64,000 bases of DNA, taken from contig NZ_SNXW01000003.1 in assembly GCF_004362855.1 (NCBI RefSeq), positions 1 through 64,000 of the forward strand, read 5' to 3'. This DNA comes from Aquabacterium commune (GTDB lineage: Bacteria; Pseudomonadota; Gammaproteobacteria; Burkholderiales; Burkholderiaceae_C). Below are positions 34,643-58,078 of this stretch, piece after piece. The translations under genes were made by a program, and so were the position numbers. The stretch's first letter is position 1. Each line of letters begins with the position of its first letter. The notes under the pieces are model-generated. The model did not search any database, was not told where the DNA came from, and saw nothing but the letters and a program-made list of their open reading frames with translations.

Positions 34643-37600
34643 ATGCCGATAGTCAGCGCCTTGGGCGATCCTGTGTCCGGAGGTTCTCATGTGGATGTGG
34701 CCAATCTGCTGCCCGGCTTGACGCAGCCCTGGGTTTGGGCCCCGGGTGTGGCGCCGCAGCAGGCGTGGCGCGATTGGGCTTTGCAAACGTCGGCCTGGTT
34801 GCAGGGGCAGGGCGTTGAGGCGCGCGACGCCTGTGTGGTGCTGCCCGTGGGCGCGGTGCTGTCGCAGGCGCGCCAGGCTTGGGCGCAGGCCGTGGGCGGC
34901 TGGTTGCCGCGCATCGACACCATCGCGGGGCTGATCGATGGCCTGGCCTGGTCGCACACGCCGCCGGTCTGGGGCGGGGCCTTGGCCGAGGTGTTCGCGG
35001 GGCCGGTGACGCTGGACAGCGTGTGGGACCGGTTGCACGCACGCCACAGTCTGCAGGCGCAGGCATGGGCCAAGCAGTGGTCCCGGCGCGATCCGCGGGG
35101 TTTCGAGTTCGCGCTGGACCAGGTGGTGGACGCCGCCCAAGCCTGGACGCGCGCTTTGCAAGGCTGTGCGCCCGAAGCCCGATCGGCGCGGGTGGAGGCC
35201 TGGCGGGCGCTGATGTCTGAGGCCCAGGGGCAGGGCGGTGCGTCCCACGGGCCTGGCCACCGCGAGGCCTTGTTGCTGGCCTGGGCCCTGGAATGGGCGG
35301 CCGCATCGGCGCAACAGGGCTTTGCCTCTGACGCGGTGTTCGCCTGCGCGGTGGACCGTGCGGGCCCGGCGGCCTGGGTGGCGGTGAATGCCGGCGACAC
35401 GGTGGCGCCTGGCAGCGAGGGCGCCTTGACCCTGGCCGTGCTGGCCCATGCCGCGGCGCATGGCAAGCCGGTGAGGCGGGTCGTGGCGCGGCCGTCTGCG
35501 TTGGCGCCGGCCGATGCCGTGGACGGGGCCTTGGCGGACAGCTCGTTTGATCACTCGTTCGATCGCTCATCCGGCAAGCCGCCCAGCCCGAGCGTGACCC
35601 TGCTGGCTTGCGCCGACACGCTGGACGAGGCCCGCCAGGCCGCCGCGGCTGCTTTGCAGGCCGTCAACGCGGTGCGTGCGAACGCCTGTAACGGCGCGGC
35701 GCATCCGGTGGCCTTGATCGCGCTGGACCGCGGCGTGGTGCGCCACGCGCGGGCCTTGCTGGAAGAGATGGGCGTGTCCCTGGCTGATGAGACCGGCTGG
35801 CGGCTGTCCACGACGCGCGCGGCCACCGTGTGTTCGCGCCTGCTGGCGGCATCGAACCCGCGGGCATCGACCGACGAGGTGTTGGACTGGTTGAAGTCGG
35901 GCTGGTTGCGCTGGGATGCTGCACAAGGTGCCACGCAGGGCGGCCCTCACACCCACCTGGACGATGCCGTCGGGCAGCTGGAAGCCTGGTGCCGCCAGCA
36001 CGGGCTGGTGCAGGCCTGGGGGCTGGGTGCTGTCATGGCGTCGCCTTCGGACCTGGCGCGCTCGCTGCCGGTGGACGGTGCGGCCGTGTGGCGTTGGGCG
36101 CAGGCTGCTGTGGCCCCTTTGCAGGCCATGTGGCGCGACCGCCGCGGCAACCTGGCGGGCTGGCTGCAGGCCTTGCACGCGACCATGGCCGCCTGTGGCG
36201 CCCAGGCGTCGTTGTGCGAAGACGCGGCGGGCTTGCTGGTCTGGGAGGCGTTGCGCCTCGGCGAGTTCGAAGCCGCACCAGCATCGACGGGGGATGCGTC
36301 GGCAGAGGCTGCGCAGGGCAGGGCTCCCGCGTCGGGGTGGCTGGCCGTGTGCCAGCGCACGCGCATGGATGGCGCCGCGCTGCAGCGCTGGGTCCGCGAG
36401 GTGCTGGAAGAGGTGACCTTTCGGCCCGCACCGCCTGAAGGCGCGCCCGATGTGGTCATCACGACCCTGGCACGTGCGGTGCTGCGGCCTTTCTCGGCCG
36501 TGGTCATGCCCGGTGCCGACGAGCGCCAGCTGGGCGCTTTGCCCAACAGCCCGGGCTGGCTGGGCCAGCGCTTGCGCGAGGCCATGGGTTTGTCCACCGC
36601 GGTGCAGTTGCGCGAAGCCCAGTGGGAGGCCCTGGGGTTGCTGCTGACCCAGCCGGAGGTGACTTGCCTGCACCGACGGGCGCAAGGCAGCGAGACGCTG
36701 GAGCCCAGCCCCTGGCTGACCCGCTGGGCACAAGGCCGTCCCGACGCCGTGCTGCACGGCACCGACCCCCGCGAAGCCCTGGCCGTGGCGGCCACGCCCG
36801 TGGCCATGCCCGCACCCAGCCTGATGGGGGCGCCCGTGGGTTTGCCGGCGCGGGTGTCGGCCACCAGCTACGAGCAATTGCGCCAGTGTCCCTACCGCTT
36901 CTTTGCCGCCACGGTGCTGGGTTTGCGCCAGGCGGACGAGCTGGAGGAAGGTCTGGAGGCGTCCGACTACGGCATCTGGCTGCACGAGGTGCTCAGGCGC
37001 TTCCACGAAGCGCGCTCGCAGGCGCTGGCTTTCAGTCAGGCTGACGAGGACGTGGCCCAGTGGCTGGCCGTGGCGCGCGAGGTGTCGGTCGATCTGGGCA
37101 TGGGTGGCGAAGGCCAGCGCGCCCATTTCCTGCCTTTCGCCGCGGCCTTGCCGGCCCTGGCCCGGGCCTACGTGGGCTGGTTGCGCACGCACGAGGCCGA
37201 CGGTTGGGCCGTGCGCGCCACCGAGCAGTCCATCACCCGGGCCTTGGCCTTGCACGATGGCAGTGCGTTGCAGCTCTACGGGCAGCTGGACCGCATCGAC
37301 GTGCGCCACGAGCCAGCCGGTGATGGCCAGGCCCGGCGCGAAGTGCGCTGGGTGCTCGATTACAAAACCGGCAACGCCGAGAGCCTGCGCCTGCGCGCCC
37401 AGTCGGGCAGCGAAGACACCCAACTCGCTTTCTACGCGGCCCTGGGCGCCGATGCACAGGGTCACACAGGCGATCAGGTCCGCGCAGGCTACGTCCACCT
37501 GGACCCCAAGGCCGTGAAGATGCTGGAGCACCCCGATGTGGCCGACAGCGCCGAAGCCCTGCTGCAAGGCCTGGCCAGCGATTGGCAGCGCCTGCGAGAA

Positions 37601-37711
37601 GGCAGCCCCTTGCCGGCCCTGGGCGAAGGCCCGGTGTGCGGCCACTGCCATGCGCGCGGCCTGTGCCGGCGCGACCACTGGACACCCGAGGAGGCCCACG
37701 ATGGCCCATGA
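34643..37711 (+). CDS. addB: AddB-like helicase-nuclease subunit (PD-(D/E)XK)
   Basis: A 1022-residue B subunit of the AddAB end-resection complex that prepares double-strand breaks for RecA. The first 600 residues are a diverged helicase-like region without an intact Walker A. The C-terminal nuclease has WVLDYKTGN (Asp and Lys of the active site, about residue 900) and QLAFYAAL. An iron-sulfur 'staple' is formed by Cys749 (QCPYRFF) and the C-terminal triplet CGHCHARGLC (Cys 999, 1002 and 1008). It overlaps addA by 11 bp. Long antisense frames over both genes are codon-bias shadows. Confidence 0.9.
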   Translation: MPIVSALGDPVSGGSHVDVANLLPGLTQPWVWAPGVAPQQAWRDWALQTSAWLQGQGVEARDACVVLPVGAVLSQARQAWAQAVGGWLPRIDTIAGLIDGLAWSHTPPVWGGALAEVFAGPVTLDSVWDRLHARHSLQAQAWAKQWSRRDPRGFEFALDQVVDAAQAWTRALQGCAPEARSARVEAWRALMSEAQGQGGASHGPGHREALLLAWALEWAAASAQQGFASDAVFACAVDRAGPAAWVAVNAGDTVAPGSEGALTLAVLAHAAAHGKPVRRVVARPSALAPADAVDGALADSSFDHSFDRSSGKPPSPSVTLLACADTLDEARQAAAAALQAVNAVRANACNGAAHPVALIALDRGVVRHARALLEEMGVSLADETGWRLSTTRAATVCSRLLAASNPRASTDEVLDWLKSGWLRWDAAQGATQGGPHTHLDDAVGQLEAWCRQHGLVQAWGLGAVMASPSDLARSLPVDGAAVWRWAQAAVAPLQAMWRDRRGNLAGWLQALHATMAACGAQASLCEDAAGLLVWEALRLGEFEAAPASTGDASAEAAQGRAPASGWLAVCQRTRMDGAALQRWVREVLEEVTFRPAPPEGAPDVVITTLARAVLRPFSAVVMPGADERQLGALPNSPGWLGQRLREAMGLSTAVQLREAQWEALGLLLTQPEVTCLHRRAQGSETLEPSPWLTRWAQGRPDAVLHGTDPREALAVAATPVAMPAPSLMGAPVGLPARVSATSYEQLRQCPYRFFAATVLGLRQADELEEGLEASDYGIWLHEVLRRFHEARSQALAFSQADEDVAQWLAVAREVSVDLGMGGEGQRAHFLPFAAALPALARAYVGWLRTHEADGWAVRATEQSITRALALHDGSALQLYGQLDRIDVRHEPAGDGQARREVRWVLDYKTGNAESLRLRAQSGSEDTQLAFYAALGADAQGHTGDQVRAGYVHLDPKAVKMLEHPDVADSAEALLQGLASDWQRLREGSPLPALGEGPVCGHCHARGLCRRDHWTPEEAHDGP

Positions 37712-40700
37712 AGCCTACCAACTCGACGGCCAATGGGTGGACCCCGCTCGTTTCTACGCCGTGGCCTGCGACCCGCAGCGCAGCGTGGTCGTGGAAGCCT
37801 GCGCTGGCGCAGGCAAGACGTGGATGCTGGTGTCGCGCATCCTGCGGGCCATGCTCGATGGTGTGCCGCCGCAGCAGGTGCTGGCCATCACGTTCACGCG
37901 CAAGGCCGCGGGCGAAATGCGCGAGCGCCTGCACCGCTGGCTGGCCGATTTCGCCCAGGCCTCACCGGCGCAGCGCGAGACCGAATTGCGCCTGCGCGGC
38001 GTGCCCGAAGCGCGCTTGGCCGAGCTTTCGCCGCGCCTCGGGGCATTGCACGGGGAGTGGCTGGCCGGTGGCCGCGGCGTGGAAATCCACACCATCCACG
38101 GTTGGTTCTCCCGCCTGGTCAAGGCCGCGCCGCTGGACCTGCTGGCCGAGCTGAACCTGCCGCCCGAGCTGCAATTGCTGGAAGACACCGAAGCCATCTG
38201 GCCCGAGCTGTGGGCGCGTTGCCTGCGGCGCATCGATGCGCTGGCGGGCGGTCGCCAGCCCGAGGCGTCGGCACCCAAGCAAGATGGGTCGCAGGGCGCC
38301 TCCCTCGATGACCCTCTCGACGATGCCTGGCTGGCCTTCCACGCCGTCATCCGCGCAGCCGGCCGCCACAACGCCCAGGCCTGGTTGCTGCAAGCCCTGC
38401 ACAACCGCCTGGAGGTGTTCCTGGCAGAGCAGGGCGGTGTGCTCGCCGACAGCGTGCCTTCTGCAGCCGATTGGGACGCACAGTGGGCAGGCTTGGACCA
38501 CCCTCACCAGGCGCTGGCGCGCACATCGGTGAACGACGGCTTCTGGGCGCTGGCACGAGCCCAGGCCACGGCCAAGCCGGGCAGCAAGGCGGTCAAGGCC
38601 GGCGAAGCCGTGGCGCTGGCGCTGGCCGAGACCGATCTGGCCCAGCGCATGGACGCCCTCCTGCAAGCCCTGTTCACCAAAGACGGCAAGGGCGACGCGC
38701 GCAAGCAGCTCGGCGATGCCCCCGAGCTGGCCTGGGCCCAAGCCTGGCTCCACGACCTGCGCCAGGCCTGTGCCCAGCAAGACGCCCACGCCTTGCACCG
38801 CCAGATGGTCACGCTCAGCCGCCTGATGATGGACGAGTACGCCGCCTTCAAGCGCGAACGCGGCCTGGCCGACATGGCCGACTTGGAACTGGCCGCGGCC
38901 CGCCTGCTCAGCGACGAGGCCCTGGCCGGCTGGGTGCAGCAACGCCTGGACAGCCAGGTGCGCCAGGTCCTGATGGACGAGTTCCAGGACACCAGCCCGC
39001 TGCAGTGGCAGGCCCTGCGCGCCTGGCTGTCGGCCTATGCCGGTGCGGGCGGTGGCGGCAGCGGCCGCGAGCCCTTGCAGGTCTTCCTGGTGGGCGACCC
39101 CAAGCAAAGCATCTACCGCTTCCGCCGGGCCGATCCCCGCGTCTTCGAAGCGGCCAAGGACTTCGTCATCGAGGGCCTGGGCGGCCACCTGCTGGCCTGC
39201 GACCACACCCGCCGCAACGCCCCTGGCGTGCTGGACTGCCTCAACCGCGTCATGGGCCAGGCCCACGCCGAGGGCGCCTTCCCCGGCTGGCGCACGCACA
39301 CCACGACCTCGCAGGACGCCGCGCGCATCCGCGTGCTGCCCAGCGTGTCCAAAGACAGTGCTGACAGCACAGGTGTCAACGGTGCCGATGACGGCCAGGC
39401 AGATGACACCGGCGAGTCCAGCACCCCCTGGCGCGACACCCTGCGCACCCCGCGCCTGCAGGCCCGCACCACCGTCAAGGCGGTGGAGGCGGCGCAGTTG
39501 GCCCAGGCCGTCGCCCACGCCGTGCGCCACGAAGGCGTGCCCGCCGATGAGGTTTTCGTGCTCAGCCGCACCCGCGCGACCCTGGCCCTGGTGGCCGAAG
39601 CGCTCGACGCGCTGGGCGTGCCCCACGTGGCGCCCGACAACACCCCGCTGATCGACACCCCCGAGGTGCGCGACCTGGTCGCCGTGGTCGAGGCGCTGGT
39701 GTCGCCCCGCCAGAACCTGGCGCTGGCGCATGCGCTCAAGAGCCCGGTGTTCGGCGTGGATGACGCCGGCCTGATGGCCCTGGCGGCGTGGGCCACCAAG
39801 CCCCAAGCGTCCACCCCCTGGTGGGACGCCCTGCAAGCCTGGGCCGCCTCCGGCGAAGCCATGCCCGAAGCCCTCGCCCGCGCTGCGCATCTGCTGTCGG
39901 CCTGGCGGGGTCTGGCCGCGCAATTGCCCCCGCACGACTTGCTCACGCGCATCGTCACCCAGGGCGAGGTGCGCGAGCGCGTGCTGGCCTGCGTGCCGAC
40001 CAGCCAGCGCGCCCAGGCGCTGTGGCACATCGACGCCTTGCTGGCCCACACCCTGGAGATGGACGCCGGCCGCGACGCCACGCCTTACCGCTGGATCCGC
40101 GCGCTGCGCCAGCAGTCGCCGACCTTGCCGGCGCGTGCCCAGGCCGGCGCCGTGCAGCTGCTGACCATCCACGGCGCCAAGGGCCTGGAGGCCCAGGTCG
40201 TGTTCATGCTCGACACCGACCCGCTGCCACCCAAACGCGCCAGCTATGCCCTGTTGGTGGACTGGCCCGACAACGCACCGCACCCCGCCCGCGTGGCCTT
40301 CGTCCAGGCTGAAAGCGCGCCGCCGCCCAGCCTGGCCGCGCCGTTGGAGGCCGAGCGCCTGGCCGCCCAGCGCGAGGAGCTCAACGCCCTCTACGTGGCC
40401 CTCACCCGGGCGCGCGAACAGCTCGTTTTCAGCCGCAGCGTGCCCAGCCGGGCATCGTCGTCGGGGGCGATGAGCTGGTGGCAGCGCCTGGTGGCGTCCG
40501 AAGCCATCGACCCGCAAGGCGAAGCCATGGCAGGGCAGGGCAATGCGCCGGGCCTGCAAACCCCGCGTGCCGCGATGGCCGAACTTGCCGTCCTGCCAGC
40601 GCTGCGGCCCAAGCCAGCCGACGACAACCTCGCCGCTGATGCTGAAGCCGACGACCCCCACACCCGCCTGCTGGGCCAGGCCGTGCACCGCGCGCTGGAG

Positions 40701-41138
40701 GTGCTCACCGTGCAGCCCGTGTCGGCGCGCAGCGAAGCCCTGGTGCGGCAAGCGGTGGTGTCGGCGCTGCGCAGCGTCGGGCTGCCCACCCGATGGCAAG
40801 GGGATGCCGAAGCGCGCACCCGCGCCATCCTGTTCGCGCCGGAGTTGCAGCCCTGGCTGGACCCGCAGCGCCTCTTGTGGGCCGGCAACGAGGTGGCGCT
40901 GTGCCACGAGGGGCAGACCCTGCGCCTGGACCGCCTGGTCGCTCGCCAGACGGATGCCGGCCGCGAGTGGTGGGTGATCGACTACAAGCTCAACGCCCAG
41001 CCCGACGCGCTGCTGTCTCACCGGCAGCAACTGCGGCGCTACATCGCGGCGGTCAGCCACCTGCAGCCGGGCGAGCCGGTGCGGGCGGCTTTCGTCTCCG
41101 GCAAGGGGCAGTGGTTGCCGGTGGACGCGCTGGGTTGA
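37701..41138 (+). CDS. addA: AddA-like UvrD-family helicase-nuclease
   Basis: A 1145-residue A subunit, a 3'-5' UvrD/RecB-like helicase fused to a nuclease. Walker A is ACAGAGKT (33-40), motif Ia AITFTRKAAGEM, Walker B VLMDEFQDTSPLQWQ, motif III LVGDPKQSIYRFRRADP, motif V LLTIHGAKGLEAQVVF and motif VI LYVALTRAREQLVF. The C-terminal nuclease has HRALEVL and WWVIDYKLN. The start at 37701 (MAHEAYQLDG) overlaps the addB end. With addB it makes the RecBCD-equivalent machine usual in Burkholderiales. Confidence 0.95.
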   Translation: MAHEAYQLDGQWVDPARFYAVACDPQRSVVVEACAGAGKTWMLVSRILRAMLDGVPPQQVLAITFTRKAAGEMRERLHRWLADFAQASPAQRETELRLRGVPEARLAELSPRLGALHGEWLAGGRGVEIHTIHGWFSRLVKAAPLDLLAELNLPPELQLLEDTEAIWPELWARCLRRIDALAGGRQPEASAPKQDGSQGASLDDPLDDAWLAFHAVIRAAGRHNAQAWLLQALHNRLEVFLAEQGGVLADSVPSAADWDAQWAGLDHPHQALARTSVNDGFWALARAQATAKPGSKAVKAGEAVALALAETDLAQRMDALLQALFTKDGKGDARKQLGDAPELAWAQAWLHDLRQACAQQDAHALHRQMVTLSRLMMDEYAAFKRERGLADMADLELAAARLLSDEALAGWVQQRLDSQVRQVLMDEFQDTSPLQWQALRAWLSAYAGAGGGGSGREPLQVFLVGDPKQSIYRFRRADPRVFEAAKDFVIEGLGGHLLACDHTRRNAPGVLDCLNRVMGQAHAEGAFPGWRTHTTTSQDAARIRVLPSVSKDSADSTGVNGADDGQADDTGESSTPWRDTLRTPRLQARTTVKAVEAAQLAQAVAHAVRHEGVPADEVFVLSRTRATLALVAEALDALGVPHVAPDNTPLIDTPEVRDLVAVVEALVSPRQNLALAHALKSPVFGVDDAGLMALAAWATKPQASTPWWDALQAWAASGEAMPEALARAAHLLSAWRGLAAQLPPHDLLTRIVTQGEVRERVLACVPTSQRAQALWHIDALLAHTLEMDAGRDATPYRWIRALRQQSPTLPARAQAGAVQLLTIHGAKGLEAQVVFMLDTDPLPPKRASYALLVDWPDNAPHPARVAFVQAESAPPPSLAAPLEAERLAAQREELNALYVALTRAREQLVFSRSVPSRASSSGAMSWWQRLVASEAIDPQGEAMAGQGNAPGLQTPRAAMAELAVLPALRPKPADDNLAADAEADDPHTRLLGQAVHRALEVLTVQPVSARSEALVRQAVVSALRSVGLPTRWQGDAEARTRAILFAPELQPWLDPQRLLWAGNEVALCHEGQTLRLDRLVARQTDAGREWWVIDYKLNAQPDALLSHRQQLRRYIAAVSHLQPGEPVRAAFVSGKGQWLPVDALG

Positions 41139-50969: not shown

Positions 50970-51258
50970 GGGCTTGCGTGCTGCACGTGCCGAGCTTTGT
51001 GCTCGGGTCACGCACCTCGGAGGTGCGCGCGCCGAGCTCAGAGCTGCAGTGACGCACCTTTTTGCTGCGTGAGCCGAGCAAAAAGCTCGGCGCGCGGAGA
51101 TGCGCAGCTCGGCACGCCGAGCTCAGAGCTCCGTGCATGCACCTCAAAGGTGCGCAAGCCGAGCTCTGAGCTCCGCGTGTGTCGTGATTTGCTCGGGCGG
51201 TGCAGCAAAAAGCTCGGCGCATGCACCTCGGAGGTGTGCGGGCCGAGCTCAGAGCAGG
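50970..51258. repeat. 42-bp tandem repeat array with alternating hairpins
   Basis: About seven units start at 50970, 51012, 51054, 51096, 51139, 51181 and 51223, a period of 42 bp (one unit 43). The first half of a unit is the palindrome GCACCT-CGG-AGGTGC or a variant (CAA loop at 51139). The second half centres on GCCGAGC-nnnnn-GCTCGGC, with a five-base loop that changes from unit to unit (tttgt, tcaga, aaaaa, tctga). The best stem is at 51073-51091. Some units are degenerate. The array fills most of the 419-bp gap between the zntA start and the restriction gene; apart from it I see nothing in that gap. No spacers, so not a CRISPR. Confidence 0.8.
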
Positions 51259-51344
51259 AAGGCTGGGGAAAAACGCTCAGGCGGCGGTGTGCGCAAGCCG
51301 CAAGCGGAGGTGGCCCGCGAAAGGCGGGCAGTTCCGGGCGCGGC

Positions 51345-54300
51345 TCATGCCCCCCGCCACGCCGCGGCAGCGCCCTGCTGGGTGGCCTGCGCGCGGCCCA
51401 GGGCCGTGAGGGTGTCGAGGATCTGCGGCAGGCGCTTTTTCCAGGGGCCGCGCCCGGTGAAGCGGTCGGCGAGCTGGGCTTCGCTCAGCGGCGAGGGGCT
51501 GGTTTGCAGGGCGTCGGCCACGGCGCGCATTTGCTCTGGCAGTTCGGCGGGCCAGGGCTGGCGGGCGCGTTGGGCGCCTGCACCTTGCGATGAGGCCGCT
51601 GCATCTGTGGCCTCCGCGGCCTCCGACCCTTCCGATGCCTCCAACGCTGCCCCGCCATCGGGCGCGTCGCGGCCGGCGGCATCGCTGCCCGAGCCAGCGG
51701 CAGATGGGGCCACGGTGGCCAAGGGCAGAGCGCTTTGCGTGGCCGCTGCGGCGCGCTGCGCCGGGTCCTGGAAGGCGGGGCGCAGCCAGCGCACGGTGCC
51801 GTTGGCTTCTTCGGCGGCGCGGCGGGCGTTCAGGGCGACGAGGCGGCCGAGCAGGGCGTCCGTCCAGGCCTGGCGGGCGCTCAACTGGCCCTCGCTGCTG
51901 TCGCCGCCCGTGCTGCCCGCGCCGTGGCCCCAGGGCACCTCGCCCAGGTCGGCCCAGCCGTAGGCCTGCAGCACGGCGGCGTCGAGCTCGGTGTGCAGGC
52001 TCAGCAGCACGCCGGCCAGGCCGGCATCGTGGTGCTGCTTTTCCTTGGCGCTGAGGGGGCGGCCGGCGCGCAGGGCTTCGAGCACGTTGTAGAGCCCGGT
52101 CAGCGTCAGGCCCGCGGCCTGGCCTTCGGTGGATGCGAGCACGCGCTTGCGGTGGGCGTCGATGGCTTCGGCGCGGGCGCGCAGGGTGTTGGCGAGGGGG
52201 CTGGCGGGGGCGAAGCCGGTGTCGTCGGCGGGGAAGGGGAAGGTTTCGAAGCAGCGGGTTTTGTTGTAGCGCGGGTCGTTGCCCACGCCGAGGCGGCTGC
52301 CGGTGGCCAGGGCCCATTCGCCGTGCACGGTGCTGGACAGCACGGCCAGGGGCAGGGCGTCGTCCAGGGCGATGGCGATCAGCATGTTGTCAGGCAGCAC
52401 ATCGGCATCGAGGAACTGGAAGACGCGGTGCTTGGTGGTTTCGACGGTGGCGATGTAGCGGGGGAGGTTGGCCAGTTGCTGGCGCATGTCTCCACGAAGT
52501 CTGCGATGAAGCCACCAACTTTCGCGGACGGATGCCATGCGGTTCACGTCGCGCTCCGGCTTCACCCGGTCGTGCAGCCACTGGTAAATGGCGGGGTAGC
52601 GGTTGCGCACGGCATCGGCGTCCAGGCCGAACAGGTCGATCACCATCGACCCGCGCGGCGTGGCTGTCAGGTCTCGGCCATTGCGGTAGGCGCGGATATG
52701 GCGCTCCAGCCCCGGCTCGCGGCCCAGGCCCAGCGCAGCGGCCTCGTCCGGCGTGACGATGAAGCCGGCGCTACCCAGTTCATGCCCGCGGTTTGAAATG
52801 CCCATGTTGGCCCGCAAGGCCACGGCCCCGGCCACGTTGGCGCCCACGCGCAGGTCGGCATGGACCACACCGGTTTGGCCGGTCAGGGCCACGGCCACCT
52901 CGTCGTGCTCGCCGGCGGTTTCGCTGCTCACGCTCAGCAGGCGGCCTTCGCCGGTGCCTGCGGCGCCCACGGTCATGGCAATGCGCACGGCGGCCCCGGC
53001 GGCGCTGTCCACCCAGGGGTGGTCGGGCACGGCAAAGCGCAGGTGCAGCGGGGCTTTGCCATCTGACAGGTGGGCCTCGATGACGCGGCGGTTGAAGGTC
53101 TGGCGCAGGCTGTTGGTGGTGATGAGGCCAAACTGCCGCACGGCGCCCTGGCGGGTCAGGGTGGCGGCGTGGTCCCACCAGTGCATGACGAAATCGGCGC
53201 TGTCGGGCACGCCGGGCCAGGCGGCGCGCAGGGCCTCCACATAGCCATCGCCCAGCGCAGCCCGCATCGTGCTGGCACCAATGAACGGCGGGTTGCCCAC
53301 GATGTAGTCGGCCTGCGGCCAGGCGGCCGGGCGCGGGTTCAGGTAGCGCCACTGCGGCGTTTGCGCGGCCTCGTCGGGCACGGGCAGGCCCGTCACGGGG
53401 TGGGGCTTGTGGGTGACGCCGTCCCAGCGGGTCAGGGCGTGGCCTTGGGCATCGAGGGCGGGCTCCTGGCCATCGCAGGCCAGCACGGCGTCGCGGTGCG
53501 CGATGTTGCCGAAGTCGTGCACCACGGGCTCGGCCACGCTGGCGGCGCCCTGGGTGCGGATGTGCCACTGCAAATGCCCGATCCACAGCACCAGCTCGGC
53601 CAGGGCGGCGGCGCGCTGGTTGAGCTCGATGCCCAGCAGCTGCTTGGGCGTGACGGTTTCGCCCTCCAGGCCGAGCTTGCTTTGGGTGTCGCCCAGGTCG
53701 TGCAGCTGGTTGAGCACCTCGCCTTCCAGGCGCTTGAGGTGTTCCAGCGTCACGTACAGGAAGTTGCCGCTGCCGCAGGCCGGGTCCAGCACGCGCACGG
53801 TGCACAGCTGGTGGTGGAACTGGCGCACGGTGGCGCGCGCCTCGTTCATGGCCTTGGCGGCCTGGCTCACCTGCTTGGCCGTGGGGGCCTTCGGCTTGCC
53901 TTTGGCATCGAGCGGGTGCTGCAGGGCCTGTGCTTCGCTGGCCAGCAGCAGGGCGGCGGCCTGGGCGTCGGCCCACTGGGCGCGCAAGGGCTCGATCACG
54001 GTGGGCAGCACCAGGCGCTCCACGTAGGCGCGCGGCGTGTAGTGGGCGCCGAGGGCGTGGCGCTCGGTGGGGTTGAGGGCGCGCTCCAGCAGGGTGCCGA
54101 AGATGGCGGGTTCCACGGCGGTCCAGTCGGCCTGGGCGGCGCGCAGCAGCAGCCTGATCTGCGGCTTGCTCAGGGGCAGCACGTAGCCGTCTTGCGCATG
54201 GCCTTTGAAGATCTTGCCGTTGAAGCGCAGCAGTTGCGCGTTGAGCGCGCCGTTGTAGTCGCCCGTGTCCATGTCGCGCCAGAGCACGCGCAACTGGCGC

Positions 54301-55127
54301 TGCAGCGCGTCGGGCTCGTCGATGTGGCGCTCCAGCAGGGTGCGGAAGCTGTCGCGCGGCAGCAGGGCCACGTCTTCGGCGAACATGCAAAACAGCGCAC
54401 GCGTCAGGAAGGCCGCGACCTGCTCGGAGGGGTGGCCGGCGTCTTCCAGCGAGCGCGCCACCTCGGCGAGCTTGGCGGCCACATCGCGCGTGACCTCGGC
54501 GCTCAAGCGCGCCGGGTCCAGCGACATCGGTGCCATCCAGACCTTGCGCAGGCGCTCGCGCACCTGGGGCTGGGCCAGATCGACCAGCGCGATGCGGTGG
54601 CTGCGCGTGTCGGGGAAGGGCGTGTAGGTGCCGCCGCTGCGCGAGAACTCGGCGTAGAGCTCGATGACGTGGCCGACGTCGATGACGATCAGGAAAGGCG
54701 GGCGGCCCTCGCTTTGCGGCAGGGCGCGGGCGTAGTTTTCCGCTTGCTGGCGCGCACCGAGCATGGCCGTCTGGAAGCCCTGGGTGTGCGGCGCGGTGCG
54801 GATCTTTTTGGCCTCCAGCACGAAGGCATCGCGGCGGTAGCAGTCGAGGAAGCAGCTGGTGTCGTTGCCATCGCCAAAGGCCATGCGCACGCGGCGCTCG
54901 AACACATAGGGGTTCTCGCGCTGGTCGTGGTGGGCGGGCTCGGGGCGGGGCACGCCGAGCACGTCGCACAGCTCGGTGATGAACATCTGGTAGTTGGCGC
55001 GCTCGCTGCCATCCTTGCCTTGCCATTTGGCGATGAGCGCGAGTGCGGCGGCCTGTGCCTGGGCTTGGGCTTGGGTCTGAGCTTCGGCGCTGGCCGGGTT
55101 TCCCTGGGTGTGTGCTTGTGTCGTCAT
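51345..55127 (-). CDS. MmeI-like class IIL restriction-methylation enzyme
   Basis: A 1260-residue single-chain enzyme combining nuclease, methyltransferase and specificity parts. Residues 90-110 carry a PD-(D/E)XK-type core (FLDCYRRDAFVLEAKK, with E105 and K107). A helical connector follows, then GAHYTPRAYVE (360-370), SAM motif I VLDPACGSGNF (446-456) and catalytic NPPF (612-615), implying N6-adenine methylation. The target-recognition region spans about 800-1050. The last 200 residues are an Ala/Ser-rich linker and a helical tail (LSEAQLADRFTGRGPWKKRL) beyond the usual MmeI architecture. The ATG at 55127 is chosen; the frame continues to 55253 but overlaps the divergent gene's leader. Confidence 0.85.
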   Translation of the reverse strand: MTTQAHTQGNPASAEAQTQAQAQAQAAALALIAKWQGKDGSERANYQMFITELCDVLGVPRPEPAHHDQRENPYVFERRVRMAFGDGNDTSCFLDCYRRDAFVLEAKKIRTAPHTQGFQTAMLGARQQAENYARALPQSEGRPPFLIVIDVGHVIELYAEFSRSGGTYTPFPDTRSHRIALVDLAQPQVRERLRKVWMAPMSLDPARLSAEVTRDVAAKLAEVARSLEDAGHPSEQVAAFLTRALFCMFAEDVALLPRDSFRTLLERHIDEPDALQRQLRVLWRDMDTGDYNGALNAQLLRFNGKIFKGHAQDGYVLPLSKPQIRLLLRAAQADWTAVEPAIFGTLLERALNPTERHALGAHYTPRAYVERLVLPTVIEPLRAQWADAQAAALLLASEAQALQHPLDAKGKPKAPTAKQVSQAAKAMNEARATVRQFHHQLCTVRVLDPACGSGNFLYVTLEHLKRLEGEVLNQLHDLGDTQSKLGLEGETVTPKQLLGIELNQRAAALAELVLWIGHLQWHIRTQGAASVAEPVVHDFGNIAHRDAVLACDGQEPALDAQGHALTRWDGVTHKPHPVTGLPVPDEAAQTPQWRYLNPRPAAWPQADYIVGNPPFIGASTMRAALGDGYVEALRAAWPGVPDSADFVMHWWDHAATLTRQGAVRQFGLITTNSLRQTFNRRVIEAHLSDGKAPLHLRFAVPDHPWVDSAAGAAVRIAMTVGAAGTGEGRLLSVSSETAGEHDEVAVALTGQTGVVHADLRVGANVAGAVALRANMGISNRGHELGSAGFIVTPDEAAALGLGREPGLERHIRAYRNGRDLTATPRGSMVIDLFGLDADAVRNRYPAIYQWLHDRVKPERDVNRMASVRESWWLHRRLRGDMRQQLANLPRYIATVETTKHRVFQFLDADVLPDNMLIAIALDDALPLAVLSSTVHGEWALATGSRLGVGNDPRYNKTRCFETFPFPADDTGFAPASPLANTLRARAEAIDAHRKRVLASTEGQAAGLTLTGLYNVLEALRAGRPLSAKEKQHHDAGLAGVLLSLHTELDAAVLQAYGWADLGEVPWGHGAGSTGGDSSEGQLSARQAWTDALLGRLVALNARRAAEEANGTVRWLRPAFQDPAQRAAAATQSALPLATVAPSAAGSGSDAAGRDAPDGGAALEASEGSEAAEATDAAASSQGAGAQRARQPWPAELPEQMRAVADALQTSPSPLSEAQLADRFTGRGPWKKRLPQILDTLTALGRAQATQQGAAAAWRGA

Positions 55128-55236
55128 GCGGGGGATTCTGCCAAAGGGGTGTGGCGGCTTGGCGCTGCCCATCCGATACAGTTCGGCAAAGCCCAAGACC
55201 ACACCACCAACACCCCAGCCTTTGAGAGGGCGTGCC

Positions 55237-56424
55237 GTGAGAATCGAATCCATCCGACTGAAGAACTACAAGGTGTTCCGCGATGTGCACCTGACCGACA
55301 TCCCGAACTTCCTGGTCGTGGTGGGCGCCAATGGGGCCGGCAAGTCCACCCTGTTCGATGTGTTCGGCTTCTTGCACGACTGCCTCAAGGGCAATGTGCG
55401 GCAGGCCCTGGATGCGCGGGGCCGCTTTCGCGAAGTGTTGAGCCGCGACGCCACCGACCCGACCATCCTCATCGAGATCCAGTACCGCATGCAGATCACG
55501 GGTGTGGAGCGGCTGGTGACCTACTCGCTGGAAATCGCGGAGCGTGCGGGCCAACCCATCGTTCAGCGCGAAATCCTGCGCTACAAGCGGGGGCGTTATG
55601 GCAGCCCTTACCGCTTCCTGGACTTCACCAACGGCGAGGGCTTTGCCATCACCAACGAGGAAGACTTCCAGAAGGGCGACGAGGAGCTGGATCGGGAGTC
55701 GCAGAAGGTGGCGCCCGACACCCTGGCCATCAAGGGCCTGGGGCAGTTTGAGCGCTTCAAGGCGGCCACGGCGTTCAGGCAGCTGATCGAGTCCTGGCAC
55801 GTGTCGGACTTCCACATCAACGCCGCACGGGGCCGCAAGGAGGCGTCGGGCGAGTCGGAGCACCTGTCCGAAACGGGGGACAACCTGCCGCTGGTGGCGC
55901 GCTACCTGTTCGAGCAGCACCCCGAGGCTTTCAAGGAGATGTTGGACGTGATGGCGCGCCGCGTGCCGGGCATCGCGTCGGTCACGCCCGAGTTGATGGC
56001 CGATGGCTACCTGACCCTGCGCTTTCAAGATGGCACCTTCAAAACGCCGTTCCTGGACCGCTATGTGTCCGACGGCACGATCAAGATGTTCGCCTACCTC
56101 GTGCTGCTGCACGACCCGAAGCCGCACCCGCTGCTGTGTGTGGAGGAGCCGGAAAACCAGCTCTACCCCAAGCTGATGGGCGAGTTGGCCGAGGAGTTCC
56201 GGCTGTACGCACAGCGGGGTGGGCAGGTGCTGGTGTCCACGCACTCGCCGGACTTCCTGAACGCGGTCAACCTGGAGGAGGTGTGCTGGCTGGTCAAGCG
56301 CGAAGGCGCCACCGAGATCAGGCGTGCCCGCGACGATGCCCAGATCGCTGCCTACATGGCCGAAGGTGACCAGATGGGCTACCTGTGGAAGCAGGGCTTT
56401 TTCGAGGGCGCCGACCCGGTATGA
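55237..56424 (+). CDS. AAA family ATPase (OLD/RecF-like), DUF4276 partner
   Basis: A 395-residue ABC/SMC-type ATPase without a long coiled coil. Walker A GANGAGKST is at 30-38, following the typical lead MRIESIRLKNYKVFRDV. The signature-like YVSDGTIKMFAYLVLL is at 277-291, Walker B LLCVEEPENQLYP at 299-311 and the switch His in STHSPDF at 334-340. This class drives OLD nucleases and antiphage complexes. It starts with GTG at 55237 after GAGAGGG, overlaps the next gene by ATGA, and is divergent from the MmeI-like gene (109 bp apart). Its substrate is unknown. Confidence 0.88.
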   Translation: MRIESIRLKNYKVFRDVHLTDIPNFLVVVGANGAGKSTLFDVFGFLHDCLKGNVRQALDARGRFREVLSRDATDPTILIEIQYRMQITGVERLVTYSLEIAERAGQPIVQREILRYKRGRYGSPYRFLDFTNGEGFAITNEEDFQKGDEELDRESQKVAPDTLAIKGLGQFERFKAATAFRQLIESWHVSDFHINAARGRKEASGESEHLSETGDNLPLVARYLFEQHPEAFKEMLDVMARRVPGIASVTPELMADGYLTLRFQDGTFKTPFLDRYVSDGTIKMFAYLVLLHDPKPHPLLCVEEPENQLYPKLMGELAEEFRLYAQRGGQVLVSTHSPDFLNAVNLEEVCWLVKREGATEIRRARDDAQIAAYMAEGDQMGYLWKQGFFEGADPV

Positions 56425-57011
56425 AAGAGCTGGTTTTTTTCCTGGAAGAGCCTTCGGCACAGGCCATGTTGCAGGGGCTGTTGCCGCGCATGCTGGCCCC
56501 TGACATCCATGTCCGCCTGATTCCTTTCGAGGGCAAGCAGGACCTGGAGAAACAGCTGACCCGGCGCTTGCGTGGCTACCTCAACCCACAGGCCCGTTTC
56601 ATCGTCTTGCGGGACCAGGACAGCGCGCCTGATTGCACCGTCGTCAAGCACAAGCTGCTGAGGCTTTGCGCAGACGCAGGGCGCGGTGCGGTGTCGCTGG
56701 TGCGGGTGGCGTGCAAGGAGCTGGAAACCATTTACTTGGCTGACCTCGCTGCTGTGGAGCGTGCGCTGGGCGTGACTGGGCTGAGCAAGCATCAAGCCAG
56801 TGCCAAGTTCAGACAGCCTGACCACCTGGGCAGCCCAAGCGATGAGCTGCGCAAGCTGACGCAAGGGGCTTACCAGAAGGTGGGTGCGTCGCGCTTGATC
56901 GGGCCGCACCTGGACCTGGCCAACGAACGCTCGCCCACTTTCAAAAATCTGGTGAAGGGCATCAGGCGCCTGGAAGCCGAGTTGTTGGCCTTGCCTGCCG
57001 AAGCGCCATGA
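56421..57011 (+). CDS. DUF4276 family protein, TOPRIM-like
   Basis: A 196-residue protein with the DUF4276 layout: an N-terminal strand ending in acidic residues (VFFLEEPSAQAML, E9 and E10), then IVLRDQDSAPDC (D65 and D67), then CKELETIYLAD. A glutamate after strand 1 and a DxD after a later strand is the pattern of TOPRIM nucleases, so it may act as the nuclease or effector to the upstream ATPase. That assignment is by motif only. It overlaps the ATPase gene by 4 bp and the patatin gene by 4 bp, so the three are probably translated together. Confidence 0.82.
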   Translation: MKELVFFLEEPSAQAMLQGLLPRMLAPDIHVRLIPFEGKQDLEKQLTRRLRGYLNPQARFIVLRDQDSAPDCTVVKHKLLRLCADAGRGAVSLVRVACKELETIYLADLAAVERALGVTGLSKHQASAKFRQPDHLGSPSDELRKLTQGAYQKVGASRLIGPHLDLANERSPTFKNLVKGIRRLEAELLALPAEAP

Positions 57012-58078
57012 AAGCACTGCACATCCACGTCGGCGAGCGCGCCCGCCAGCACATCGCCACCCAGGGCCTGCGCCCGCAGGACATCCGCGTGGTGCCCGCC
57101 GCCGCCGGTGGCCCCAAGGGGCTGATGCTCACCCACCTCGACCAGCAGATCTTCGGCCGCTGGCTGCCCATGGGCGGCCACACGGTGCACCTCGTGGGCG
57201 CGTCGATTGGCGCCTGGCGCATGGCCACGGCCGCCATGCCCGACCCCATCCGCGCCTTCGCCGAGCTGTCGCACGGCTACATCCACCAGCACATCGAGCC
57301 CGAGGCGGGGCGCACATTCCCCTCGGCGGCGCGCATCACCGCCGGCTTCACGCAGACCCTGCAGGACTTCTTCGGCCGCGACACCGCCGCCTTGCTCAAC
57401 CACCCGCGCTGGCGCCTGCACGTGCTGACCTCCAAGGGCCGGCAGATCCTGCGGCAGAACACCCCGGCGCGCACGGCGGCGGGCTTCGCCGGCCTGGCGC
57501 TGACGAATGCGCTCTCGCGCAAGGCCGTGGGCCTGTTCCTGGAGCGCCACGTGTTCTCCTCGCCCGGCGAGCCGCTGCCCGTGCCCCTGCGCGACCTGCC
57601 CACGCAGCACGTGGCGCTGACCGAAGCCAACTTCATCCCGGCCATGCTGGCGTCCTGCAGCATCCCCTTCATGCTGGAAGGCGTGCCGCACATCCCCGGC
57701 GCGCGGCCCGGCACCCACTGGGACGGCGGCCTGGTGGACTACCACGTGCACTGGCCCTACAACCAGATGAAGCCCGGCCTGGTGCTCTACCCGCACTTCC
57801 AGCAACAGGTCGTGCCCGGCTGGCTGGACAAGGGCCTGCGCTGGCGCCACCGCGCCACGCCGGCCTTGAGCAACATGGTGCTGCTGTGCCCCAACCCCGA
57901 GTGGGTGCGCACGCTGCCCGGCGGCAAGCTGCCCGACCGCACCGACTTCAAAAGCCTGCCGCCGCAGCAGCGCATGAAGGTCTGGACCGAGGCGGTGGTG
58001 CGCTCCGAGCAAATGGCGCAGGAGTGGCAGGCATGGCTGGACGGTGGGTGCCCGGTGGATGTGTTGAGGGCGTTGTGA
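57008..58078 (+). CDS. patatin-like phospholipase
   Basis: A 356-residue patatin-fold hydrolase. The oxyanion loop is AAGGPKGL (residues 31-38), the nucleophile elbow GASIGAW (Ser near 65) and the catalytic Asp in WDGGLVDYHVH, so the Ser-Asp dyad is intact. It has no signal peptide. Relatives of this length seem widespread in Burkholderiales as stand-alone genes, so it may be an ordinary lipid-metabolism gene. However, its start overlaps the DUF4276 stop as ATGA, which places it in the same operon as the ATPase pair. The lipid substrate is unknown. Confidence 0.85.
   Translation: MKALHIHVGERARQHIATQGLRPQDIRVVPAAAGGPKGLMLTHLDQQIFGRWLPMGGHTVHLVGASIGAWRMATAAMPDPIRAFAELSHGYIHQHIEPEAGRTFPSAARITAGFTQTLQDFFGRDTAALLNHPRWRLHVLTSKGRQILRQNTPARTAAGFAGLALTNALSRKAVGLFLERHVFSSPGEPLPVPLRDLPTQHVALTEANFIPAMLASCSIPFMLEGVPHIPGARPGTHWDGGLVDYHVHWPYNQMKPGLVLYPHFQQQVVPGWLDKGLRWRHRATPALSNMVLLCPNPEWVRTLPGGKLPDRTDFKSLPPQQRMKVWTEAVVRSEQMAQEWQAWLDGGCPVDVLRAL

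Follow-up and report, generated by a model that had tools for sequence, protein, structure and literature searches.

An ATPase/DUF4276 gene pair of Aquabacterium commune belongs by profile to the candidate defence system HEC-01 and encodes a predicted TOPRIM subunit

A 64,000-nucleotide stretch of Aquabacterium commune DNA (contig NZ_SNXW01000003.1, positions 1 to 64,000; hereafter the window) contains an ABC-type ATPase gene and a DUF4276 gene that lie head-to-head with a restriction enzyme, and the question raised by this locus is whether the pair is an antiphage module and how such a module might work. The ATPase frame (55237-56424, + strand) begins with GTG and encodes 395 amino acids; the DUF4276 frame (56421-57011, + strand) encodes 196, and the ATPase stop and DUF4276 start share an ATGA (56421-56424, + strand), as a first-pass annotation of the sequence had read. 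Both proteins exceeded the Pfam cut-off (AAA_21, 107 bits for the ATPase; DUF4276, 42.2 bits for the small protein) and both matched HEC-01 models of PADLOC over their full length (PDLC04144, 759 bits, and PDLC04143, 295 bits, respectively); the pair was therefore assigned to this catalogued candidate defence system. Judged by these profiles it is a new member of HEC-01, from which no difference was seen. The reading that we favour, at a probability of about one half, is that of a horizontally moving two-gene defence cassette in which an ATPase-gated TOPRIM nuclease would be triggered by failure of restriction.

HEC denotes Hma-embedded candidate (PMC12988326, PMC10855318) and is entered under 'Unknown' in a table of PMC10855318. 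Antiviral activity is reported for several HECs, HEC-06 included, in a passage of PMC12988326 that does not name HEC-01, and HEC-01 is listed among the systems found in PMC12724379. The first-pass annotation had regarded the function of the ATPase/DUF4276 pairing as not established; this agrees with the literature searched, in which neither a demonstrated function for HEC-01 nor a mention of DUF4276 was found (the HEC preprint lies outside that literature), but the pair already has a name as a candidate system. A protein search of the pair's own genome found one copy. A PF14103 search of that genome gave no match, as it did in 14 controls, and is uninformative.

The two genes were consistently coupled in relatives. 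The locus set comprised the best 80 of 259 relatives from a scan of genome contigs, with genes called by our own simple caller, independently of annotation. In all 80 loci, two of which are cut by a contig end, the ATPase gene lay directly upstream of the DUF4276 gene on the same strand. Two adjacent genes, as expected of HEC-01, are thereby found in the window, where they overlap by ATGA, and in every relative. The spacing was -4 nt in 76 of the 80, -1 in three and +3 in one, and the 76 overlaps read ATGA (73), GTGA (two) or TTGA (one). A -4 overlap was readable in 46/315 other same-strand neighbours of those loci, against 76/80 for the pair; the coupling thus exceeds chance.

The small protein is predicted to be a TOPRIM nuclease subunit with conserved acids. 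In a structure search with its predicted model, the top solved-structure matches were TOPRIM domains of OLD proteins, and the invariant glutamate and DxD expected of a TOPRIM domain were found as E9, D65 and D67, each present in 81 of 81 sequences. E9/E10 (56445-56450, + strand; E10 in 80/81) follow strand 1, and E9 was aligned by hhalign with the glutamate of the OLD VEG motif; D65-Q-D67 (56613-56621, + strand) follow strand 3 and were aligned with the OLD DxD. For the hhalign comparison 10 of 25 OLD loci were dropped by a motif filter. E102 (56724-56726, + strand; 80/81), after strand 4 in the model, may be the counterpart of the OLD metal-B glutamate. At +4 from E9 stands A13, a residue shared by 79/81 sequences. 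E9/E10, D65 and D67 were the acids to which the first-pass annotation had pointed, and the TOPRIM-like character that it read from them was borne out when the predicted model was compared with known folds. One search yielded 2464 proteins related to DUF4276, and set A1 comprised 36 of 120 listed homologues. A PDB sequence search with the DUF4276 alignment gave three matches, judged to be chance, and AriA/AriB entries were not among the 50 matches listed for either the DUF4276 or the ATPase model, which excludes nothing.

The partner is an ATPase of ABC/SMC-head type, as assigned from the reading frame, Pfam, PADLOC, an AlphaFold2 model and Foldseek. The first-pass annotation had described complete Walker A, signature and Walker B motifs, and all three were present: GANGAGKST at G30-T38 (55324-55350, + strand; G30 and K36 kept in 79/79), VSDGT at 277-281 (56065-56079, + strand; S278, D279 and G280 in 79/79) and LLCVEE at 299-304 (56131-56148, + strand; E303 in 79/79, E304 in 78/79). 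H336 was likewise invariant (79/79). The alignment contained 79 sequences, from which the partial ATPases of L045 and L049 were excluded, and set A5 held 50 of 78 full ATPases. The model (predicted local distance difference test score 84.7) has a full ABC head resembling PtuA, Rad50 and OLD, and Foldseek ranked Septu PtuA and a retron IA ATPase highest among its matches (E 2.5e-12). A PDB sequence search returned 33 sequences led by ABC-F and transporter ATPases, with PtuA and the OLD nuclease of retron Eco8 at E 0.0011.

Such folds would also suit a split DNase of OLD or Gabija type that attacks phage DNA directly and guards nothing, neighbouring restriction-modification (RM) genes then reflecting mere co-location of defence genes. 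The OLD TOPRIM domains that are the nearest solved folds of the small protein are reported to cut DNA in vitro, and the ATPase head is of the matching PtuA/Rad50/OLD-like kind, but no Gabija-type helicase partner stands beside the window pair. The pair is also often found without RM genes: in 58/80 loci the four RM clusters considered here were not immediate neighbours, and some of these copies are flanked by aceK and an hrpA-like gene (three Pseudomonas) or by the genes for homoserine dehydrogenase and threonine synthase (L050 and L067). Against this, the pair sits inside RM operons, which goes beyond proximity, and RM genes flank it on both sides in 13 loci. We consider a split DNase unlikely, though worth keeping in view.

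The four clusters of type I and type III RM genes directly adjoined the pair in 22 of 80 loci (35/150 genes) versus one of 66 loci (1/99 genes) farther out, the far set being genes more than 5.5 kb from the pair in the 66 loci that reached so far, the remainder being too short (Fisher p 6.5e-8, computed on genes with relatedness ignored). HsdR and HsdS shared one cluster and were separated by representatives and length. This neighbour count agrees with the link to defence genes that the first-pass annotation had proposed. Sixteen loci had a type I setting: an HsdM-cluster gene directly followed the pair in ten (hsdR-hsdS-pair-hsdM where the contig shows it), and the order hsdM-hsdS-pair was seen in L005, L007, L016 and L028, with L020 and L061 showing less. 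The six type III loci comprised four with the order mod-pair-res (L006, L014, L015 and L037), one in which res follows the pair (L018) and one in which a mod-cluster gene does so (L072).

PADLOC was applied to 149 of the 150 near genes, the patatin-like gene of L002 being excluded, and tallies were taken over the first 25 of 135 and of 146 families. In agreement with the neighbour count, among the families listed, a first batch of 76 near genes matched type I specificity models up to 11 times each and type I methyltransferase seven times; a second batch of 73 gave three of each. Among the 99 far genes a type I restriction enzyme was matched once, as was each of the PDC-S68, DpdF, JetD, RecD-like, GlgB-named, PDC-M16A and PDC-S53 models. 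Nine further neighbours, mostly large, comprised type IIG-like genes in L022 and L076, a type III restriction gene in L080, a helicase in L060 matching DpdE, DrmD and HmaA models, a TIR match in L070 and four genes without a match.

More distant copies, though not all of them, were found in similar company. In a genome of the same genus (G031, 36% identity) the order was N6_Mtase, YhcG, Methylase_S, ATPase, DUF4276, DUF4268 and an HsdR-like gene, so that this diverged copy (L120 7-11335) forms part of a type I RM operon that also has YhcG and DUF4268 genes. On a Meiothermus plasmid (33%; L165 1592-9629) the order was restriction subunit S, DUF4433, a macro domain gene, ATPase, DUF4276 and restriction subunit R. 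Within 6 kb of a copy on a Pseudanabaena plasmid no RM gene is annotated, in a gene table that is incomplete according to its makers. On a quick-method tree of 79 ATPases the type I label required at least 10 changes and the type III label five, counts that establish neither one event nor a large number of independent ones; with labelled rows alone each label required one change. The tree cannot separate gain from loss.

Positions between hsdS and hsdM, or mod and res, would also be expected if the pair regulated the adjacent RM enzymes or served them as an accessory subunit, with the TOPRIM part as a non-cutting docking module. A single type of pair, however, accompanies type I, IIG and III enzymes, its acids are conserved, and the pair of the window exists without MmeI in a related genome (G009, below), so that this role seems quite improbable. 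Slightly better placed, but still improbable, is a toxin-antitoxin-like addiction pair maintained by linkage instead of phage defence. The AAA_21 model is named for AbiEii, and the tight overlap and patchy distribution of the pair would fit an addiction module, as would the toxin-antitoxin genes nearby on a Synechocystis plasmid. The ATPase has a full ABC head, however, whereas AbiEii is a nucleotidyltransferase, the TOPRIM acids are conserved, the pair occupies positions in RM operons, and matches were found in just 8 of 72,556 plasmid records and in none of 50,697 phage records. The Synechocystis plasmid is pSYSM (L163 2998-8985), on which the pair lies near a phosphorothioation-associated methyltransferase gene as well as the toxin-antitoxin genes.

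The pair is patchily distributed in its genus, and an empty site is known. The pair was present in 3/42 genomes of the genus and absent from 39/42. Five same-genus genomes were compared at this site, and in four without the pair (G026, G033, G001 and G029) a P-type ATPase block lay within ~0.3 kb of a patatin-like gene. In G026 the segment corresponding to 51240-57006 is absent and 27 bp separate the aligned flanks; the left edge falls in repeats and is approximate. In the fifth genome, G023, the P-type ATPase and patatin-like genes are separated by ~6.2 kb of other DNA (L115 4713-10938), a result that fits an empty site less neatly. This interval, lying where the window has the pair, may mark an insertion hot spot. 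The downstream edge of the insertion is an ATGA (57008-57011, + strand) in which the DUF4276 stop overlaps the ATGAAA start of the patatin-like gene (57008-58078, + strand). The patatin-like start, ATGAA, is unchanged in 5/5 genomes without the pair, and the DUF4276 stop codon therefore lies in the old start of the host gene. A downstream -4 overlap was readable in 17/62 same-strand downstream neighbours versus 46/315 elsewhere (Fisher p 0.024), an excess that is suggestive only, since the way in which starts were chosen favours -4 and the loci are relatives of one another.

The patatin-like gene was found in 35/37 genomes of the genus, that of the window included, and serves as a chromosomal anchor that is probably outside the system. 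It was considered as a third effector and ruled out, given this near-universal occurrence against 3/42 for the pair and its presence in only one (L002) of the 80 loci. The restriction enzyme that the first-pass annotation had placed head-to-head with the pair is real: an MmeI-like type IIG/IIL restriction-methylation gene (51345-55127, - strand, start taken by eye; PADLOC REase_MTase_IIG 1424 bits; MmeI_Mtase 110 bits), the start codon of which diverges from that of the ATPase at a distance of 109 bp. G009 carries a 95% identical pair, but ~160 bp stand there where the window has the MmeI-like gene; the pair and this gene thus came or went separately, and the MmeI-like gene was accordingly ruled out as an obligate part. 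Judged by length and coordinates, L002 and G009 (L119) seem to be one contig, and they were counted once.

The description of the site as typical of defence islands was not supported as worded. The genes around the window pair encode a P-type ATPase, an Na/Ca exchanger, a dihydroorotate-dehydrogenase-domain protein, the patatin-like protein and PaeA, the wider neighbourhood is of housekeeping type, and the 95% identical locus lacks the restriction enzyme. A housekeeping function, as reported for an archaeal OLD ATPase (PMC12796447), might be supposed from copies that lie between housekeeping genes, but it is hardly credible for a pair that occurs in just 3/42 genomes of the genus and for which an empty site is known. 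Two other features of the window were recorded. Clustered CCGAGCTC/GAGCTCGG palindromic repeats at 51100-51260, by the P-type ATPase gene, resemble repetitive extragenic palindromic elements and are also present in G026 and G009; at 34643-41138 a PDDEXK gene and a UvrD helicase-PDDEXK gene are neighbours, which we take to resemble an AddB/AddA pair.

Among named systems, MAD3/MAD4 of MADS are by profile the nearest kin of the pair. The NCBIfam MAD3 model scored 132.9 bits on the ATPase, both proteins look homologous to MAD3 and MAD4, and DUF4276 aligned over most of its length with six MAD4-profile proteins (probability 92.7, P 4.3e-7). These came from 6 of 15 loci (L148, L151, L153, L155, L157 and L162), taken by profile rather than as MADS operons, and all six had a related ATPase. 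The ATPase nevertheless missed the MAD3 cut-off of 420 bits, the PADLOC mad4 model gave the small protein just 12.9 bits (E 0.035), and no MADS operon is apparent in the immediate flanks of the window pair, which are the MmeI-like, patatin-like and PaeA genes. The MAD4-profile proteins also lack equivalents of E9 and D67, and therefore support kinship of the pair rather than nuclease activity. With their related ATPases they form an apparent sister family in which the TOPRIM acids are changed (AD for E9-E10).

Likeness to other systems was partial. PtuA of Septu gave the best Foldseek match of the ATPase, but PtuB is an HNH nuclease whereas the partner here is a TOPRIM protein; among the structures matched by the ATPase, retron entries that include an HNH nuclease name it in their titles. 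AriB of PARIS belongs to the DUF4435 family, which the window protein does not match (DUF4276 was its only Pfam family at E ≤0.01 and at ≤5), and profile similarity of PARIS to the pair is weak. AbiL is linked to RloA-RloB; the AbiLi model gave 79.5 bits, but Pfam gave no RloB match for the small protein. Gabija GajA and OLD nucleases share with the pair the TOPRIM fold and acids and the ABC head, but no GajB UvrD-like helicase stands beside the window pair, where the neighbours are the MmeI-like and patatin-like genes. AbiL is described as combining an ATPase with a Toprim part (PMC12409363), and PARIS resembles the pair in having an ABC ATPase and a TOPRIM protein as two genes and in its RM-guard logic (PMC12409363, PMC12707154). 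OLD proteins of classes 1 and 2 are single chains, unlike the separate genes here and in 80/80 loci, and are described as having an acidic residue four positions after the TOPRIM glutamate (PMC6755086, PMC7049728), where the window protein has A13. The first-pass proposal of a split OLD/PARIS-type module thus stands as to the OLD-like TOPRIM fold, but by the available tests the pair is a member of neither system. PrrC, an ABC ATPase nuclease embedded in the type I RM locus ecoprrI (PMC12707154, PMC2610378), recalls the copies in G031 and on the Meiothermus plasmid, where the pair and other genes lie between hsdS-like and hsdR-like genes; it is, however, a single chain with an anticodon-nuclease domain, and the cited passages do not mention TOPRIM. 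Genetic linkage to RM, the mark of a guard of PrrC or PARIS type, was found at the level of the family; in the window it is represented by the MmeI-like neighbour, which is absent in G009.

The favoured reading of a mobile, ATPase-gated defence cassette may be set out as follows. The ABC ATPase would sense infection and hold the DUF4276 protein in check; upon a trigger it would free the TOPRIM protein to cut nucleic acid with Mg2+, and the cutting would halt phage growth and probably the cell, as in abortive infection. The likeliest trigger would be failure of restriction, whether through an anti-restriction protein of the phage or through a genome left unrestricted, because RM gene sets of several types recurrently enclose or adjoin the pair. 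The pair would then act like PARIS, in which AriA is described as sequestering AriB until Ocr or another phage protein frees it to cleave tRNA (PMC12409363), and like PrrC, described as activated upon inhibition of restriction (PMC12707154, PMC2610378), both guards of RM systems. Nuclease activity, gating by the ATPase and the trigger are what we infer for the pair, and the substrate may be tRNA or DNA. A bolder and distinctly tentative extension is that HEC-01 could be a general portable RM guard, moved among type I, III and IIG/IIL systems and sensing a failure common to all, with the MAD3/MAD4 part of MADS as a branch of its stock, and that it can insert so exactly that the ATG of the next gene supplies its last stop codon.

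What these data add to the catalogue entry is the predicted fold, the embedding in RM operons and the empty site, although a TOPRIM fold or a link to RM may already have been put forward in the HEC preprint. If the favoured reading is correct, a domain of unknown function, DUF4276, would be recognised as a subunit of a TOPRIM nuclease, and the candidate system in the catalogue would gain a concrete mechanism. One guard serving type I, IIG and III restriction would further suggest that bacteria monitor the failure of restriction via a shared signal.
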